Virus record (IMG/VR): IMGVR_UViG_3300035701_000133
Location: 1 to 36,690 of that record
Direction: 5' to 3' (one strand)
Length of the DNA stretch: 36,690 bases
Origin: a virus
Each line of letters starts with the position of its first letter. Within the stretch, counting starts at the first letter, position 1. This document shows, in pieces, positions 15,448 through 36,690 of this stretch. Below the pieces are notes generated by a model. That model was not told the DNA's origin. It ran no database searches and saw only the letters and a program-made list of their open reading frames with translations. Position numbers and translations under genes: made by a program.

Positions 15448-17214
15448 TTAGATTTCACTGATTCCAACTGACCAATTTGCAATGACTGTTGCAGTTGCCG
15501 TCCAATTGGCATTGCTTGTAGAAACAAGCGCGGGGCGAATAGTAGTGTTAGAAACAGAGTAGTTTGCTGCACCTATATTTTCGCCAGCACTATTTGAATA
15601 AGAGCCAGTCGCACCGCCAACAGTGGAATTTGCAACGGGTGTTCTTGGATATGGGTATCTGAATGTAATACCAGCATTAATGGTGGATGTGGTTCCTGAT
15701 GTTGCAGTCATGGAAACTGTGCCTGACTGCTGCATCATTCGTTGTGGAATGTTTTGATAGTAATTTCCCTGCGGAACATGAAGGTAAGTACCAGTAGGAA
15801 AATTGCTGACGTTATCCACCACAATTGCTTGCGAAAAAGCAGAGCCACTGTTTACGTTGGTTCTAAGTACACTGCCCATCGCATTTACATCAGCTTGGAC
15901 ACCATCAATGTAGATGTTTACGTTGACAATTGAGCCATCGTTTACGACTTTCATGAAATCCGAACCAGCAACCGCACCATCTGCATAAACATAAGTGTTT
16001 TCAACAATCAGGCTTACTGTTTCATCGGTGGATGTTGTGAGAGCGCTACTATTTCCACCAACGTCAACAATTCCACGGCCAATAGATGATGGGTCACCGC
16101 TTGTGTAAAGTTTGCAATTGCGAATAAATAATTCACCACCTTTGACTTCACTTGCGTAAACGCACCATCCACCAAAAGCAGCATAAATAATGCAATTGTC
16201 ATATCCGTTGTCTGCGCCAGCCCATCCACCGCCTTGGTAAATGGTGCAACCTTGGTAAACACAATCCTGCATATTGCCATGCATATCAGCAGAATACACA
16301 GCAGAATCTATGTCGTTGCTAATTGTCAGGTTTGAAATTCTTATGTTTCTGTTTGTAACTGCGCCCGTGCCGCTACCGCCGCCAATGGTAATGCCGTGGC
16401 GCCTTGCATAGTAATCACCACCAGTAATTTGCCCCTTTTGGCTGTTGCTAATAAGCAGACCATAATCATCCAAAGTGCCTGTGCCTTTGTTGTACATCAC
16501 GCAATTTGTAATCATTGGGCGATAGCAACGATCAATTTCTACGCCTTGATAATTTTCGTTGTAGACAATCACGTTTTCCAAAATTGGCTTGTCGCAAAAC
16601 GTAATCTTTAACAAACCAAATAAATTTGCGCCACCGTTTAGCTTTAAGTTTTTAAATGAAACTTTGGGTTTGCTGTTTAGTTTGTATACGTTGACGGTTG
16701 CAGCCGTATAAGATGAATATAGTGGATTTGTTGTGTAAGCATCTGAACCACTTACACCACGGCACTCTAGCCACTCACCAGCGTAATAATACGCACGAAT
16801 GCTGTTCCATAACACGGCATCATCAAACAAAAAGAACACATCACCTGTTGTTAAAGATGGGGCGCTTGCAAAGGTAATTGTCAAGTTACCCGCACTAGCT
16901 GACGAAACAGCTTGAATTTCAGTTATTGTTCCAGTTACGGTAATTCCAGACGAACCTGATGTTATTCCACTGAAGTCTAAGACAGACTTGTCACCATCAC
17001 CAACCATGTTCAGATGGCCTGTGCTGGTTAGTGCGCTGCCGATGATGTAAGTGCCAGCAGGAACATAAATGGCTTGCCCTGTTGCTGCTACCGCTGTAAT
17101 AGCGGCTTGCATTGCAACGGCATCATTGGTTACACCGTCACCAACCGCGCCATAGTCTTTGACATTTACTGGCGCACCAGTAATCATTGAGTAAGAAACT
17201 TTAGTCAAAGCCAT
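15448..17214 (-). CDS. Tailspike, pectate-lyase-like beta-helix
   Basis: A 588-residue receptor-binding spike. The N-terminus (MALTKVSYSMITGAPVNVKD then YGAVGDGVTNDAVAMQAAI) is the standard entry to a Pectate_lyase_3 right-handed beta-helix, which should trimerise. Ladder repeats follow to about residue 470 (for example LLISNSQKGQITGGDYYARR; IRISNLTISNDIDSAVYSAD). The C-terminal 90 residues are Thr/Ser/Asn-rich and end WSVGISEI, probably a lectin-like cap or trimerisation domain. It likely binds and cleaves host surface polysaccharide. It lacks a P22-type head-binding domain of its own, so it presumably docks on the adaptor encoded upstream. Confidence 0.9.
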   Translation of the reverse strand: MALTKVSYSMITGAPVNVKDYGAVGDGVTNDAVAMQAAITAVAATGQAIYVPAGTYIIGSALTSTGHLNMVGDGDKSVLDFSGITSGSSGITVTGTITEIQAVSSASAGNLTITFASAPSLTTGDVFFLFDDAVLWNSIRAYYYAGEWLECRGVSGSDAYTTNPLYSSYTAATVNVYKLNSKPKVSFKNLKLNGGANLFGLLKITFCDKPILENVIVYNENYQGVEIDRCYRPMITNCVMYNKGTGTLDDYGLLISNSQKGQITGGDYYARRHGITIGGGSGTGAVTNRNIRISNLTISNDIDSAVYSADMHGNMQDCVYQGCTIYQGGGWAGADNGYDNCIIYAAFGGWCVYASEVKGGELFIRNCKLYTSGDPSSIGRGIVDVGGNSSALTTSTDETVSLIVENTYVYADGAVAGSDFMKVVNDGSIVNVNIYIDGVQADVNAMGSVLRTNVNSGSAFSQAIVVDNVSNFPTGTYLHVPQGNYYQNIPQRMMQQSGTVSMTATSGTTSTINAGITFRYPYPRTPVANSTVGGATGSYSNSAGENIGAANYSVSNTTIRPALVSTSNANWTATATVIANWSVGISEI

Positions 17215-21723: not shown

Positions 21724-21975
21724 TCAACACTTCCAACGTTTAAGAGCAGCTTTAGCGCGTTCGCCGTCTTTGGCGTTGGCCGCTACAGCGCCCATTCTTG
21801 CACAAAATGAATCCTTGCGGCCCTGATCTGCTTTGGTCTTGGGATTTGGGGCTGGCGCTTTAAGATTGGAGCCGGTTGCGGCATTGTACTTCTCGCGGCC
21901 TTTGGCAGTCAGGCCAGCGCCTTTGGATGTGGGCAGCTTCTCGCCGCGCCCAACACTAAGAGATACTTTTTTCAT
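21724..21975 (-). CDS. DUF6321-like protein
   Basis: An 83-residue basic protein. The ATG at 21975 overlaps the terminase TGA (ATGA) and gives MKKVSLSVGRGEKLPTSKGA, the expected start; an in-frame ATG four codons earlier lies within the terminase gene. GLTAKGREKYNAATGSNLKA, a Pro/Lys-rich linker, DSFCARMGAV and a C-terminal KRWKC are the features I associate with the DUF6321 type in phages and bacteria. Function is unknown; its composition suggests nucleic-acid contact. Its linkage to terminase and portal suggests a packaging-stage role. Confidence 0.82.
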   Translation of the reverse strand: MKKVSLSVGRGEKLPTSKGAGLTAKGREKYNAATGSNLKAPAPNPKTKADQGRKDSFCARMGAVAANAKDGERAKAALKRWKC

Positions 21976-23495
21976 GAGCCCATCCATGATGTGTGCATTG
22001 CGCCGTCTTGAGCGTTATAGCGGCGAGTCGGCTCAGTATACTCGCGGTGAGCCACAGGAAAAGCAAACGTCACGCATATAGCGTCCGCTGCGTCTGGTGA
22101 TGCCAAGCCCCGTGCTTTCATTTCTTTCTTGCTCTCCAAGAAGATTGTTCCACGTGAATCAGGCTTCATCTTAGGCGAAATCAAATCCGTCTTCAAGAAC
22201 CTGTCGGTCGGGATACTAGCAGATTTCAACCACTCCCGCATCTCACCCCACATCTGCGCGCGCATATTTCCGTACATTATCGGGTTTTTGGACTTATTTC
22301 CAAAGTTCACACCCTTAATCTTGTACCGCTGCTCTTTGAGCCTGTCCACAATCCCAGCGCCCAGCCCACCCTCGTCGATTACTACCAGCGTCGGTTTGTA
22401 CTCTTCAATCGCGTCAATCACATACCCCACGACCGTCATTGTGTCGTCGCCCCGGTGCCGAGTGATGTTGATTATGTCCCGTCCTTGGCGCACGGCGATA
22501 ACCGTCGCGTCCGCGCCGTAGCGCGCCGGATCGACGCCGATGATGATGGGTGCTGACAAGTCTTTGTACTTCTCCCGCTTCATGGCCTCGTCCACTATGT
22601 CTGAGCCGATGAACTGGTCATCCCCCGCGCTTGGGAACATCCCGTAGACCTCGACGTGCGACTGCGATGAGTCCGGCCCGTACTCTTGGATGATCCGCTC
22701 GTAGACCTGTTTGTCCGTACCCTCTACCGTGCGCGCGTCCACCACCTTGGTTTTCCAAAACGCCCGCTTGGAGTTAAACGCCTCGTAGAAGTATCCCGTG
22801 TTGCGGCGGGGGTTGGAGAACGCCAGCCAGAAACGGTTGGGTGTGTTCTCAGTAAAAAAACCCGCAGTCACCGCCCAGATCGTGTCGTCGATACCTGACG
22901 CCTCGTCGAACACCACCAGCACGCCGTCGTAGTTATGCACACCCGCGTAGGCGTCGGGGTTCTCCGCTGACCACAGCCGCCCCTCGACGCCCCAGTACCT
23001 GGTGCCCTTCTTCAAGTCCCGCTCAACCAGTTCAGTCAGCCACTTAGCGGGCATCACCCGCGTGGCGCTGACTTCAAACCAGTGGCTGTTGATTGCCATC
23101 GCCAGCCACTTGGTAATCTCGGCCCAGGTGATACTTCTGAGTTGAGACTCGGAGTTGGCCGAGATGATGGTCGTCGAGCCGATGCGAGTCGCCAGCATCC
23201 AGATCGTGATCCAACTGACCAAGGCCGATTTGCCAATACCGCGCCCAGACGAGATGGCGCTTTGCAGCACATTGAAGTCCAGTAGCCCTTTGTTTGCCTC
23301 GATATGCTCGGCGATGTCTTGCAGCACCTCGCGCTGCCACTTGCGCGGCCCTTTAAAGTTTTCTAGCGGAGTACCCTTGACACCCCACGGGAATACCAGA
23401 GCTACAAAATTGAGCGGGTTGTCCTTGATGCGCGGCGCCCACAGACGCGCCATCAGGGCTTGTTCGTCTTCAGCGCTGTATCTGGTGGACTGCAT
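21972..23495 (-). CDS. terL: Terminase large subunit
   Basis: A 507-residue packaging motor with ATPase and nuclease. The Walker A is SSGRGIGKSALVSW near residue 83, Walker B with catalytic Glu is VLVVFDEASGID near residue 197, and the coupling segment is FSNPRRNTGYFYEAF. The RNase H-like nuclease has Asp in IIGVDPARYGADATVIAV near residue 322, a second acidic site in LVVIDEGGLGAGIV, and a third in SPDAADAICVTFAFP. It drives headful-type packaging if the P22-like layout extends to packaging, which I infer. It overlaps the small subunit gene by 26 bases and the following gene by ATGA. Confidence 0.96.
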   Translation of the reverse strand: MQSTRYSAEDEQALMARLWAPRIKDNPLNFVALVFPWGVKGTPLENFKGPRKWQREVLQDIAEHIEANKGLLDFNVLQSAISSGRGIGKSALVSWITIWMLATRIGSTTIISANSESQLRSITWAEITKWLAMAINSHWFEVSATRVMPAKWLTELVERDLKKGTRYWGVEGRLWSAENPDAYAGVHNYDGVLVVFDEASGIDDTIWAVTAGFFTENTPNRFWLAFSNPRRNTGYFYEAFNSKRAFWKTKVVDARTVEGTDKQVYERIIQEYGPDSSQSHVEVYGMFPSAGDDQFIGSDIVDEAMKREKYKDLSAPIIIGVDPARYGADATVIAVRQGRDIINITRHRGDDTMTVVGYVIDAIEEYKPTLVVIDEGGLGAGIVDRLKEQRYKIKGVNFGNKSKNPIMYGNMRAQMWGEMREWLKSASIPTDRFLKTDLISPKMKPDSRGTIFLESKKEMKARGLASPDAADAICVTFAFPVAHREYTEPTRRYNAQDGAMHTSWMGS

Positions 23496-23880
23496 CGACT
23501 ACCTCAATGACGCGCATCTCTGCTTCTTGCAGCGCCTGCGTGATGGATATGCGCTGGTCAATGTCCACCGTGATGGACTGCTTGGCGACCCAGCCGTGCT
23601 GGTGCTTGAGAATCTCAAGCGCCGCCTTGGCGTCGCCCTCGCGGGCGGCTTTGTGCAGGATGTCGGCCATCTCGCGCTCGCCGTCGGCTTTGCCTTTGAT
23701 CGCGGCCATCTCGGCCAGCGCGTCAAATTGGCACAGGTGCCGGTACTCTTCAGGCCGCATCCCAGAAGCCAGCGCCAGCGTGTCGCCCTTGAGCCCCAGC
23801 TTGGCAGCGTCGTATATCGCCTGCAAGCGCGATTCGGTTGCTTGGACGTTTCGGACAGTGAGCGGCAGTGATTTGAACAT
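23470..23880 (-). CDS. terS: Terminase small subunit
   Basis: A 136-residue protein immediately upstream of terL. The N-terminal half has helix-turn-helix character (ESRLQAIYDAAKLGLKGDTL; ALASGMRPEEYRHLCQFD) for DNA recognition. The central helices (ADGEREMADILHKAAREGDA; KAALEILKHQHGWVAKQSIT) form the typical oligomerisation region. It should bind the packaging site, probably close by in 23881-24270, and hand DNA to TerL. AGGAGAACAA precedes the ATG. A TATAAA on the minus strand (23921-23916) could be the -10 of its own promoter, without a good -35. First gene of the 22.6-kb late block. Confidence 0.88.
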   Translation of the reverse strand: MFKSLPLTVRNVQATESRLQAIYDAAKLGLKGDTLALASGMRPEEYRHLCQFDALAEMAAIKGKADGEREMADILHKAAREGDAKAALEILKHQHGWVAKQSITVDIDQRISITQALQEAEMRVIEVVDAVHQIQR

Positions 23881-24004
23881 TTGTTCTCCTGCGCCTGGGA
23901 GGCGTGTGCGTGGATTTTATATTAAAAAAATTTTGTTTGTGGCCCCTCCGTTTACGTTGGCCCAATCGCTCGGCCCTACCCCCTCCCCCTGGCTGAAATT
24001 CTAC

Positions 24005-24066
24005 GCAAAATGGCAAGCAATCCCTAGGCAAAATGGCAAGCAAATACTAGTCAGAATGGCAAGCGG
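24005..24066 (+). repeat. Three iteron-like direct repeats, 23-bp period
   Basis: AATGGCAAGC occurs at 24009, 24032 and 24055, exactly 23 bp apart. The first two copies share the longer word GCAAAATGGCAAGCAA; the third is CAGAATGGCAAGC. Regular two-turn spacing is typical of iterons for a replication initiator or of a terminase recognition array. Confidence 0.85.
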
Positions 24067-24080
24067 TTGGCCATGGGGAT

Positions 24081-24104
24081 GTGGGTCATGTAGGCATGAC
24101 CCAC
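24081..24104. repeat. Long inverted repeat, copy 1
   Basis: GTGGGTCATG and CATGACCCAC form a perfect 10-bp stem around the loop TAGG. An identical 24-base element lies 70 bp downstream, and the word TGGGTCATGT occurs a third time at 24242. Protein-binding site or DNA hairpin in the origin/packaging region. Confidence 0.85.
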
Positions 24105-24146: not shown

Positions 24147-24150
24147 CCAT

Positions 24151-24174
24151 GTGGGTCATGTAGGCATGACCCAC
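24151..24174. repeat. Long inverted repeat, copy 2
   Basis: Identical to 24081-24104 over all 24 bases, 70 bp away (close to 6.7 helical turns). A partial, imperfect third copy (TGGGTCATGTGGGCACCCA) is at 24242-24260. Confidence 0.85.
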
Positions 24175-24304
24175 GGGGTTAGAGTGCTCCCGTAAACCAT
24201 GTGGCCATGTGGCGCCAGCAAAATACAGCGATTGTGTGCGATGGGTCATGTGGGCACCCAAAACAGCGTTTTCAAATCGCTCTACCCCATATTGAATATT
24301 TATT

Positions 24305-24324
24305 ACTGTAAAGGAATTCCTTAC
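24305..24324 (-). promoter_or_regulatory. Operator-like dyad with possible leftward -10
   Basis: GTAAAGGAATTCCTTAC at 24308-24324 is a near-palindrome. On the minus strand it runs directly into TACAGT (24310-24305), a possible -10 of a leftward promoter for the terS operon; the -35 is weak. It matches 13 of 17 positions of the dyad at 24485-24501. Confidence 0.5.
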
Positions 24325-24475: not shown

Positions 24476-24504
24476 TTGCATTGTGTAAGAAAATCCCTTA
24501 CACT
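24476..24504 (+). promoter_or_regulatory. Candidate rightward promoter with overlapping operator dyad
   Basis: TTGCAT (24476-24481) and TACACT (24499-24504) are 17 bases apart and form a weak sigma70-like promoter. The spacer and the -10 are covered by GTAAGAAAATCCCTTAC (24485-24501), the second of two related dyads. This is the classic position for a repressor site controlling the small-gene block starting at 24550. Confidence 0.5.
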
Positions 24505-27347: not shown

Positions 27348-27400
27348 TCGCAGCGGCCCTTGTGGCCGCGATCCTGGCGATCTTGTTCGATCTAGATTAA
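27338..27400 (+). CDS. Possible 20-residue hydrophobic peptide
   Basis: MLIIAAALVAAILAILFDLD starts inside the last codons of the previous gene and ends at the TAA just before the terminator stem. It is one hydrophobic helix with an acidic end. It could be a genuine micropeptide or chance; there is no clear separate Shine-Dalgarno. Its stop codon overlaps the convergent primase-helicase stop. Confidence 0.4.
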   Translation: MLIIAAALVAAILAILFDLD

Positions 27401-29679
27401 GCCCCTTCGGGGGCTTTTTCTATGGCGCGGCGCAAGTCTGATTTATTGCTTTTGGCTAACTCAGGCGCGCAGAAAATGTGTTTCTTGGTCTGATACTCGC
27501 GCGACGCCAGGCGGCCCATGTCCACCCATCCGGCCTCTTTCAGCGCGTGCATAAGCGCCGGGGGGACGATCTTTATCCCTGCTGGGGCGTATAGCTGCAA
27601 TTCATCGCAGATCGCGTAAAAAGGCGCGCCTACCACGCCGGACGCAAACGCACGCTGCCGGGCCTTGATTAGGTTGACCAGGAAGGACTCAGCGCCGCTC
27701 ATGCCATGCTCGACCATGATCGCCTTGGCCTCTGTCATTGGGGGCGCTGCATTGGGGTTCCACGCGGACACGTCACGCGAGTGTAGGTAAGCCGCCACGG
27801 CGGCGAAGCCGCCCCGGTGCTCGTACCAATTCCAAAGGGCGACCGCCTCTGCTTCGGGCAACTTACCGGCCTCCGACCATAGGACAAACCACCGCCGGTC
27901 TTCGCTGGGCAACGATATCGCTACGCGCTCATTGCTAAACGCCACCACGAAAACGCGGTTCAAAGCGTAATAAGGATGTAAGCCCTTGCGGTTGACCATA
28001 AGCAACTCGGGCGGCGCTGCGATGATGGGCTTGAGGGTATTCTCCAGCGCGCGCCGGTCTTTGGCCTCTGCCTGTCGCAACTCGGCGATCTCCATCACTT
28101 CACACTCGAGGGCGTAGCCCCATTGCGAATTGAGATCTTCATTCTTAACCAGGGAGCAATTGGCCTTGGCCTTGCCGCCTATGGCCCAAAAGAACGGGGC
28201 GAACAGGGTGTCTTTGCCCGACCCATGATTGCCGCCCAAGAGGATGGCGTGGTTGATCTTGTGGCTGGGGAACTGCACTTTATGGGCTAGGGCGTTTAAA
28301 AGATGCTCGCGCTCGAATTCAATTGGCACCATGCGCTCGACATGGCGCAGCCACGCGGACACATCAGCGGCCACCGGCTCGGGCCGGGCGTCACGCCAGC
28401 GGTTGCCGTACACCAAGCCCTCACGGGCGACCAACACCGACTCGCCTGCGGCGTAAGTGATACCGACCAGGGCGCGGGCTCCCTTGTCTTGGCGGTACTC
28501 GTCAAAGGAATTGGACGCCTCGATCTTGGGGTGCTTGCCATGCCGTGACTTGCAATTGATATGCCGAAACAAGGCGTTGAAGGTCTTACGCATCACCTCG
28601 CGCCGGTCTTCCATGTCAAAGTACGCATCATCGTTCTGTATGTACGCAAACCGCTCGAACCAGCCGGACATCTCCACGCGGCCCAACTCGCGATGCTCGA
28701 CCTCGGCGATGACTGTCGCGGCCTCGTCTGGGTATGACGGCGTCGGGGTTAGCTTGGACAGGGTGTTCTCCATCACTGCCGCCAGCAACTCATCGCGCAG
28801 GCCATGCGACCGCTTGGGGCCACCCTGCTCTTCCACCCACGCAAGATAGGCCACGCTGTCCAGATGGGCGCAATGCTCATGCAGGCAGCAATAGGCGCGG
28901 TTTACGGGGTGATAACGCCCCATCGGGTTGCCGTCGCTATGCTCGGCGCTGTTCGGGCAAACGATGCCCCACCAGCCGCTGCTGTTGCCCTTCTCCAGCA
29001 AGTCGCCGCGCGCTGCTGCCCACGCCAGCACGTCATCGCCGCCGTCGTCTGTGAGCCGGATCGGGCGCACTGTGGCGGTGTCGGCTGGGTTGGGGGTGAC
29101 GCCCAAGGCGGTGCATATAACTTCTAAAGAAAATTCCCTCTCGGGGTGGAACTCAACCAAGGCAGACGCGAAGCGGTCACGCCCAGGCTTGAGGTTAATC
29201 GAGCCCGGCAGTCTGAAATTACGGACGGGGTTAATCGCGCCGCCGTCGGTAAAGCCTGCCTCTGCGATGGCGACAATGGCCGCGCTGAACTCGCCCTTCA
29301 TGGGCTGATCGTCCAGCGCGAAGGTGTAGCCGTACTGGTAATTGTTGGGGCTGGTCTCCATGATCCACGTCGGGGCGATGGGCGGCATTTTGGCCTTGGT
29401 GCCCACGTCATCCAGCACTAGGAACGCTACACGCTCACAGGCGTCGGCCTTGGCGGCGGGCTTGCCCTCGTCGAATCGGTCGATGATGAAACAGCCGGTG
29501 TTGCAGTACCACGCTTGGTCGGGCTTCCACTTCTTGGGCAGGAACGCAGGCCACGCGCACTTGACTGCGCCGTCGGCGTGGTGCTGCACTTCGCCATCTT
29601 TCAAAATCGGCTTCTGCCGTACGAACAAAATAACCTCGCCCTCGGGCGCAATGTTTTCGAGATAAGTTAAAAAATTCAT
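27397..29679 (-). CDS. Primase-helicase (RepB-like primase, DUF5906-like helicase)
   Basis: A 760-residue replication protein. The N-terminal third resembles an archaeo-eukaryotic RepB-type primase: VAFLVLDDVGTKAK near residue 85 with acidic residues, SPNNYQYGYTFAL, and NPVRNFRLPGSINLKPGRDR. A Cys/His set at residues of about 240-272 (CPNSAEH...CCLHEHC) may bind zinc. The C-terminal half has a superfamily 3-type helicase: Walker A GGNHGSGKDTLF near residue 482-493, Walker B-like ECEVMEIAELRQ and the downstream NRVFVVAFSNERVAISLPSE. It should unwind DNA and lay primers for the phage polymerase. The start overlaps the polymerase gene by ATGA. Confidence 0.88.
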   Translation of the reverse strand: MNFLTYLENIAPEGEVILFVRQKPILKDGEVQHHADGAVKCAWPAFLPKKWKPDQAWYCNTGCFIIDRFDEGKPAAKADACERVAFLVLDDVGTKAKMPPIAPTWIMETSPNNYQYGYTFALDDQPMKGEFSAAIVAIAEAGFTDGGAINPVRNFRLPGSINLKPGRDRFASALVEFHPEREFSLEVICTALGVTPNPADTATVRPIRLTDDGGDDVLAWAAARGDLLEKGNSSGWWGIVCPNSAEHSDGNPMGRYHPVNRAYCCLHEHCAHLDSVAYLAWVEEQGGPKRSHGLRDELLAAVMENTLSKLTPTPSYPDEAATVIAEVEHRELGRVEMSGWFERFAYIQNDDAYFDMEDRREVMRKTFNALFRHINCKSRHGKHPKIEASNSFDEYRQDKGARALVGITYAAGESVLVAREGLVYGNRWRDARPEPVAADVSAWLRHVERMVPIEFEREHLLNALAHKVQFPSHKINHAILLGGNHGSGKDTLFAPFFWAIGGKAKANCSLVKNEDLNSQWGYALECEVMEIAELRQAEAKDRRALENTLKPIIAAPPELLMVNRKGLHPYYALNRVFVVAFSNERVAISLPSEDRRWFVLWSEAGKLPEAEAVALWNWYEHRGGFAAVAAYLHSRDVSAWNPNAAPPMTEAKAIMVEHGMSGAESFLVNLIKARQRAFASGVVGAPFYAICDELQLYAPAGIKIVPPALMHALKEAGWVDMGRLASREYQTKKHIFCAPELAKSNKSDLRRAIEKAPEGA
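27401..27419 (+). terminator. Rightward terminator inside 3' codons of primase-helicase gene
   Basis: GCCCC-TTCG-GGGGC followed by TTTTT on the plus strand is a textbook intrinsic terminator with a UUCG loop. The same bases encode the last residues (KAPEGA) of the gene on the minus strand. It ends the rightward small-gene block at the convergent junction. Confidence 0.9.
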
Positions 29680-32198: not shown

Positions 32199-33326
32199 TT
32201 ATTGAAGTTTAGAGAGGGCAGCGGTTAATTGCTTGCCCAGAAGCATCACCTCGGGGCGTGGATCATCCGCGCTTGCCAAGGTGTTACCTGAAGAGATGGC
32301 GACCACCAGATCACCCGGCAAAGCCTGCTTGCGCTTTTTGAGCGCCTTTTCAGCTTTGGCCGGAGAGATCACGGAAGTCTCCAACACCTCAGATTCAGTC
32401 AGACCGAACGCAAACAGGGCGACCTTGGCCTTGTCCTCGTCAGTCCATGAACGGATCGCCCGCTTGGCGACCAGTTTGTAATCAGGCAGCTTGGCCCCAG
32501 ACTCTAGCATCTGAAGCGCCAAGCCGCGCAAGTCGGTGATCCACTGCTCCAGCATATCAGCGTTCTTGAGATAGGTGGCAATGGTGGGCGGGTCAAGGTT
32601 GTCGATGGTCGTCTGCAAGGCGCGCTCGACTGCGCCGGTCATCTGTGGGCACACCGGCTTGGCGGCACACCAGCGGCAGTGATCGCCAGAGCGCAGCGGG
32701 GCGGTCTTCTTCTCGCTCATCTTGACGGCCTGCACCAACTGCAATTCAAACTCAGCAATGCGCGCTGGTGTGGTCACCCAACGCTTTACTGCTGGCGGCT
32801 GCACAATGACCATCTCAATCTCAGTCACGCCTTCAAAGGCCCACTTGGCTGCATCGGTACGCATGGCCGCAGCGGCGTAGAACATCAGTTGCATATTCTC
32901 TTCTACCTCCACAGCAACGCCATCGCCAAACTTCCAATCCAATACCACAGCGCGATTACCGATACGACCGATAAGATCAGTACTACCAAACACACCAGGA
33001 AGTAAATCACCAAAATTAACGCTAGTTTCAGATTCAATTTCCATCTCCTGCTTGGGGTCAATTTCGTCCAGCGCGCGCAAGGCGGGGTTTAGCTTGTTGT
33101 CGATCAGTTCTTGGGTCAGCACTTGGTCTTCGTACTTGGTGCCAAGGTAATGCTCAGAACTTTGGCCCGACATCACAATCTCTGCAATGACGTTGTGTAA
33201 GAGCGTGCCCTCGTCAGCGTACTTACTTGAGGGTTTGGGCGGCATCTTGGCGACTAGGGCCACCGAGCCAGGGCAGTTGATTACCCTCTTGGCGGTGCTA
33301 CCGCCGACGATGTTACTGTGCTGCAT
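32199..33326 (-). CDS. Cas4/AddB-like Fe-S nuclease, DUF2800-like
   Basis: A 375-residue PD-(D/E)XK nuclease. The ATG at 33326 has GGGAG upstream and gives MQHSNIVGGSTAKRVINCPG; in-frame starts further upstream would overlap the previous gene. Motifs are GSTDLIGRIGN (about residue 113), VVLDWKFGDG (about 130) and the QLMFYAAAA box. Cys18 plus the C-terminal CRWC...C cluster (about residues 214-225) fit the split Fe-S cluster of the Cas4/AddB group. Likely jobs are processing of DNA ends or host DNA degradation. It overlaps the upstream gene by 14 bases and lies in the leftward replication operon. Confidence 0.88.
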   Translation of the reverse strand: MQHSNIVGGSTAKRVINCPGSVALVAKMPPKPSSKYADEGTLLHNVIAEIVMSGQSSEHYLGTKYEDQVLTQELIDNKLNPALRALDEIDPKQEMEIESETSVNFGDLLPGVFGSTDLIGRIGNRAVVLDWKFGDGVAVEVEENMQLMFYAAAAMRTDAAKWAFEGVTEIEMVIVQPPAVKRWVTTPARIAEFELQLVQAVKMSEKKTAPLRSGDHCRWCAAKPVCPQMTGAVERALQTTIDNLDPPTIATYLKNADMLEQWITDLRGLALQMLESGAKLPDYKLVAKRAIRSWTDEDKAKVALFAFGLTESEVLETSVISPAKAEKALKKRKQALPGDLVVAISSGNTLASADDPRPEVMLLGKQLTAALSKLQ

Positions 33327-36408: not shown

Positions 36409-36690
36409 ATGACAGGCTACGAATCAAAGAAGGCTGCGGCGCTGGACGAGGACGGGATGTACCTTGTGCATCACACTAAAAGTAGGGTATTCGATAAGCT
36501 GGGCAACAAAGTAAAGGAAGATGACGATGACACGCAAGTTTATGCCGATGCGCTAACTATTGCATACCAATCGGGATTTTTCGATGGTAAGAAAGCAGCA
36601 CAGCGCACAGAGCCTGTGGGTTGCGTTGCTGACATTGATAGATTGCAGCGTCAAATGTTTTTGGATTTAGGTTACTCCCTGTCCGACCCA
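36409..36690 (+). CDS. Hypothetical protein, 5' part (continues at 1-422)
   Basis: This is the true start of the gene continued in 1-422. The ATG at 36409 is one base past the previous stop, and the frame runs through the repeat at 36461-36690 into the left end without interruption. The N-terminus (MTGYESKKAAALDEDGMYLV) adds 19 residues before the Val encoded by the GTG at 6. No domain is recognised; residue features are given under the left part. Confidence 0.85.
   Translation, partial: MTGYESKKAAALDEDGMYLVHHTKSRVFDKLGNKVKEDDDDTQVYADALTIAYQSGFFDGKKAAQRTEPVGCVADIDRLQRQMFLDLGYSLSDP
36461..36690. repeat. Right copy of terminal direct repeat
   Basis: Copy of 1-230 with T instead of C at 36588. 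See the left copy for interpretation. Confidence 0.95.

Follow-up and report, generated by a model that had tools for sequence, protein, structure and literature searches.

What are the three evenly spaced repeats beside the terminase genes of this freshwater phage, and which protein reads them? The window analysed here is the whole stretch of 36,690 nucleotides (IMG/VR record IMGVR_UViG_3300035701_000133), in which positions 1-230 recur at 36461-36690 with one mismatch; this 230-base overlap bears out the 36.46-kb circle of the initial annotation. The repeat AATGGCAAGC was found in three exact copies on the plus strand, at 24009-24018, 24032-24041 and 24055-24064, with the starts and the 23-bp spacing first described, and no fourth copy is present in the 36,690 bases. 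When equally spaced triples were sought for every 10-mer, the window contained one and 30 first-order Markov simulations contained none. A repeat finder lengthened the unit to 23 nt (24001-24023, 24024-24046 and 24047-24069), and the site as read on the terS strand is longer, CTTGCCATTYTGNYTAG, with a period of 23 and sometimes 24. The array sites, 17-bp direct repeats, all stand in one orientation:

24001..24017, minus strand, array site 1, the terS-proximal copy, CTTGCCATTTTGCGTAG, with its core start 36 bp from GGGTAGGGCC
24024..24040, minus strand, array site 2, CTTGCCATTTTGCCTAG (exact-copy search, repeat finder, unit comparison)
24047..24063, minus strand, array site 3, CTTGCCATTCTGACTAG (exact-copy search, repeat finder, unit comparison)

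Two points of geometry had to be revised. The sites had been placed on one face of the helix; 23 bp corresponds to 2.2 turns at 10.5 bp per turn, a rotation of about 70 degrees per site. An AT-rich segment had been placed next to the array; the flanking 200 bp have 49-63% GC, and the AT-rich part starts near 24,250.

The array was compared among 21 non-redundant close relatives with terS at least 91% identical, all array-bearing relatives being metagenomic contigs and some of their arrays being detected with tolerant patterns. It lies at the same place in all 21, in 1-8 copies (some relatives have a single one) with steps mostly of 23 and sometimes of 24 bp, so that the array first noticed beside terS is real and its place and spacing are conserved. 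Positions T1, T2, C5, T8, G11 and A15 were invariant across 53 distinct array units, which were chosen by core similarity, A15 lying outside the selecting core. Within a genome, the copies agree at 73-100% at most core positions, compared with 21-58% in the upstream flank. A DNA-pattern scan of IMG/VR, blind to gene content, placed 19 of 19 array matches directly upstream of a terS, and elsewhere in these genomes no further array sites were found beyond chance-level near matches. Because the flanks drift around a conserved core, the array is, on this pattern of conservation, a sequence-specific binding-site array and not the product of recent slippage. Neutral or selfish tandem repeats, arising by slippage in a hypervariable spacer, would account for the 1-8 copies and for the unrelated simple repeats found at the same place in other clades; this explanation is nevertheless very improbable, given the invariant core with its drifting flanks, a fixed docking distance and the recurrence of two unrelated motif classes (both described below).

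Between the array and terS, at the head of the packaging operon, lies a G-rich/T-rich block with the layout AGGGGGAGGGGGTAGGGCC...GGGCCAACG...ACGGAGGGGCCACAAACAAAATTTTTTT; measured from the terS ATG, array and block together lie about 45-185 bp upstream:

23924..23990, minus strand, G-rich/T-rich block AGGGGGAGGGGGTAGGGCCGAGCGATTGGGCCAACGTAAACGGAGGGGCCACAAACAAAATTTTTTT, candidate pac core (aligned in more than 100 relatives; IMG/VR pattern; gene order)
23916..23921, minus strand, TATAAA, candidate -10 of the late (terS) promoter (from sequence)
23470..23880, minus strand, terS, small terminase, 136 aa (adjoins terL; shares its C-terminus with Sf6-type TerS)
21972..23495, minus strand, terL, large terminase (PHROG 2/5902; relatives)

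The block can be aligned across more than 100 relatives whose terS drops to about 60% identity. Its pattern was found in 77 stretches of IMG/VR, with terS next in 73 and terL next in 4. The distance from GGGTAGGGCC to the proximal array copy was 35-39 bp in 21 cleanly measured genomes; in L096, L022 and L023 the script chose an overlapping match, and the true copy lies at a similar distance by eye. The block-to-TATA-like-box distance ranges from 4 to 65 bp among relatives, which rules out the block as a -35 element, and RNAalifold gave no RNA structure in the block. The repeats were also considered as tandem sigma-70 promoters and rejected, since TTGCCA has no -10 at 17 bp. L090, L151 and L023 each have an insert after the TATA-like box, ahead of the ribosome site of terS, and that of L090 includes the T-arm-like GGTTCGAATCC.

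The gene orders around the block were block-TerS-TerL at 131 loci, altTerS-block-TerL at 5 and altTerS-block-TerS at 2, altTerS being a Pfam Sf6_terminase protein (E=1.4e-21) encoded upstream of the block. The TerL of the altTerS genomes is 80-89% identical to that of the window, and in L241 the block overlaps the 3' end of altTerS, whose last residues are encoded by the G-run. Because an exchange of TerS leaves the block in its place directly before terL, this position indicates that the block belongs with terL and not with terS. The operon heads of the altTerS genomes carry no such arrays, and the arrays therefore appear to follow the block rather than the operon head. The Sf6-type and window-type TerS have only the C-terminal ~25 residues in common and swap around one TerL (L241, L242, L263, L157, L279, L251, L120); both types are encoded in L120, L214 and L251. 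In the AF2 model of the window TerS (a moderate model, pLDDT 75), helices 32-38 and 43-52 resemble a helix-turn-helix (HTH), and a Foldseek search of the model against the PDB gave no significant fold match.

A pac site within or beside terS is usual. We tentatively read the array and block as the packaging-initiation (pac) region of a headful-type podovirus, with the array as a clade-specific accessory arm, and hold this reading with somewhat less than even confidence. The block would be the pac core in which TerL makes the first cut; a phage protein on the array would load or position TerS/TerL on the block about 36 bp away, and packaging would start on this phage's own concatemers. Three parts of this scheme are inferences: the pac nature of the block, a packaging role for the array, and which protein binds it. 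The pac reading is favoured because the pac of SPP1/SF6 extends over the promoters and the first part of terS, and phages whose TerS proteins are interchangeable have different direct repeats there (PMC4737164). Likewise, the array and block here lie upstream of the terS ATG, and phages that share a TerS type can carry different direct repeats; the conserved block would be the candidate counterpart of the cleavage core. Compared with SPP1/SF6, this array is longer, its core is strictly held, and it is docked to a different, G/T-rich block.

In lambda-type cosB, the R sites beside cosN are spaced out upstream of terS and adjoin a conserved element, and the array here is similarly a set of spaced sites upstream of terS beside a conserved block. 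Unlike at a lambda-type cos, circular contigs read through the site and the ends of contigs fall at scattered points, 16-216 bp ahead of the block, which fits no fixed cohesive terminus (a weak test, made on contigs and not on virion reads); a fixed terminus at the array was rejected on the same scatter. The related phages DSL-LC05 (proposed Luchaoviridae) and podovirus ctNMl277 (MW202483) have the same genome plan and a related terL (67-75%). DSL-LC05, unlike the window, has an Sf6-type TerS. No 23-bp array was seen upstream of terS in MW202483, nor in the altTerS leader of DSL-LC05. Further along the window, the small ORF 26217-26471 matches Pfam Phage_TreK (E=5e-18), a family that takes its name from a terminal-repeat protein of a Staphylococcus phage.

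What stands at this spot in more distant relatives? Among 138 block loci, about 75% carry a repeat array in the 260 bp upstream of the block, compared with 1.4% of control windows. In 34 loci of other clades, the array consists of 2-8 copies of the palindrome GTTAGTGNNCACTAAC, a perfect dyad, and 194 of 196 matches to this motif fall in arrays. Thus, the array motif is swapped clade by clade at the block. The window also has a separate set of palindromes beside the array:

24079..24104, no strand assigned, 26-bp palindrome ATGTGGGTCATGTAGGCATGACCCAC with half-sites at a 9-bp period (repeat finding)
24149..24174, no strand assigned, second exact copy of the 26-bp palindrome ATGTGGGTCATGTAGGCATGACCCAC (repeat finding)

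Here and at 24242-24256, half-sites recur every 9 bp together with an inverted copy (GTGGGT-CAT-GCCTAC-ATG-ACCCAC). The 9-bp pattern is present in most relatives with a changing sequence (ATAGCCAAC, ACTGCCAAC, TTGTCCACA, GGCACACAT). Something similar to the 9-bp boxes was seen, by eye only, in Rhodoferax phage P26218; as a counterpart of the array these repeats were set aside, being by eye just other 9-bp-type boxes. The related palindromes GTAAAGGAATTCCTTAC and GTAAGAAAATCCCTTAC (24308-24324 and 24485-24501) precede the early genes and are likely operators.

Several observations weigh against the pac reading: the array is dispensable in copy number (1-8), it is missing in sister clades, and the palindrome that forms the other class resembles an operator for a transcription factor. 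A serious competing reading, somewhat less probable than pac, is that the array would be an operator array through which a phage regulator switches the late operon (terS to lysis), the block forming part of the late promoter region. The array indeed lies in the divergent region between the late and early operons, with TATAAA a few bases past the T-run of the block, and the varying copy number and the dyad of the alternative class suit such a role. The strictly held core is at odds with the SF6 DNA-binding domain, which binds weakly and nonspecifically, with little specificity for its repeats (PMC4737164), and this keeps an operator in contention. A source of regulators could be the slot after the SNF2-like helicase, where small proteins that putatively bind DNA vary from clade to clade (849-1184 in the window; L292:9127-9279): an HTH protein in 7 of 7 genomes of the window clade and a pair of ribbon-helix-helix (RHH)-like and zinc-finger-like proteins in 5 of 5 dyad-class genomes. 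However, genomes that share an array motif have HTH proteins with different recognition helices, and L248, which has dyads, lacks the RHH protein; both proteins were rejected as the reader. The 4-65 bp between block and TATA-like box also speak against late control, as do the operon heads that lack arrays where the block is elsewhere, and the block can sit within the operon, between altTerS and TerL, where a whole-operon promoter would not be expected. Nor was a host regulon found: in six bins, hosts being guesses from binning, either motif was absent outside phage contigs, bar single stray matches.

The array had initially been taken as one that a replication initiator might bind. The corresponding rival is an iteron-type origin whose reader would be the DUF5906 primase-helicase or a different initiator. 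The one-orientation repeats of the array fall inside the 17-22 bp range of plasmid iterons (PMC4980987), the phage encodes a primase-helicase and PolA, and the neighbouring 9-bp boxes partly track the C-terminal alleles of the primase-helicase. The origins of R6K, pSC101 and RK2 share with the array short direct repeats in one orientation and in few copies, but this phage lacks a Rep gene, its AT-rich part starts about 200 bp away instead of adjoining the repeats, no DnaA box lies within 1 kb, and one copy is enough in relatives. The GC skew of the circle has its minimum at 33,048 and its maximum at 15,805, away from the array. As first noted, no Rep-type initiator was seen: none was found by Pfam/PHROG on the ORFs scanned, a DnaA-C search was negative in the window, and a DnaA domain IV was seen only in the distant MW202483. 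Together with the sharing of the array by two different C-terminal alleles, these results make an origin at the array unlikely.

Which protein, then, would read the array? TerS had been named as a possible binder. In L109-L112, the DNA-binding domain (HTH) of TerS is identical to that of the window and the array has zero copies, and several different TerS HTHs are found alongside the dyad motif; because of both, TerS alone is probably not the reader and its role as binder is doubtful, although tests of array presence and absence are confounded by clade structure. For the primase-helicase, the other binder first proposed, arrays occur with both C-terminal alleles and array type does not track the allele, which argues neither way. 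The ATAGCCAAC type of 9-bp box occurs with one C-terminal allele of the primase-helicase (27397-29679) in 5 of 5 genomes (L083, L005, L090, L017, L096), and these boxes may be putative sites of that allele, with linkage as a confounder. The DnaA-domain-IV protein was rejected as a general reader, being seen in MW202483 only, and so were the window-specific early genes, which are missing from other array genomes.

Returning to the pac reading, a broader and quite improbable extension is that the locus would be a modular packaging address in a large uncultured freshwater podovirus family: a TerL-linked conserved core plus an exchangeable array, read by a separate putative phage protein, would let each of several co-infecting relatives recognise its own concatemers without relying on TerS. 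There is continuing dispute over how small terminases find their start site, and mapped pac regions are few. In this podovirus family, core, array and TerS type come in independently shuffled combinations among many natural variants, which makes their contributions to packaging start separable.
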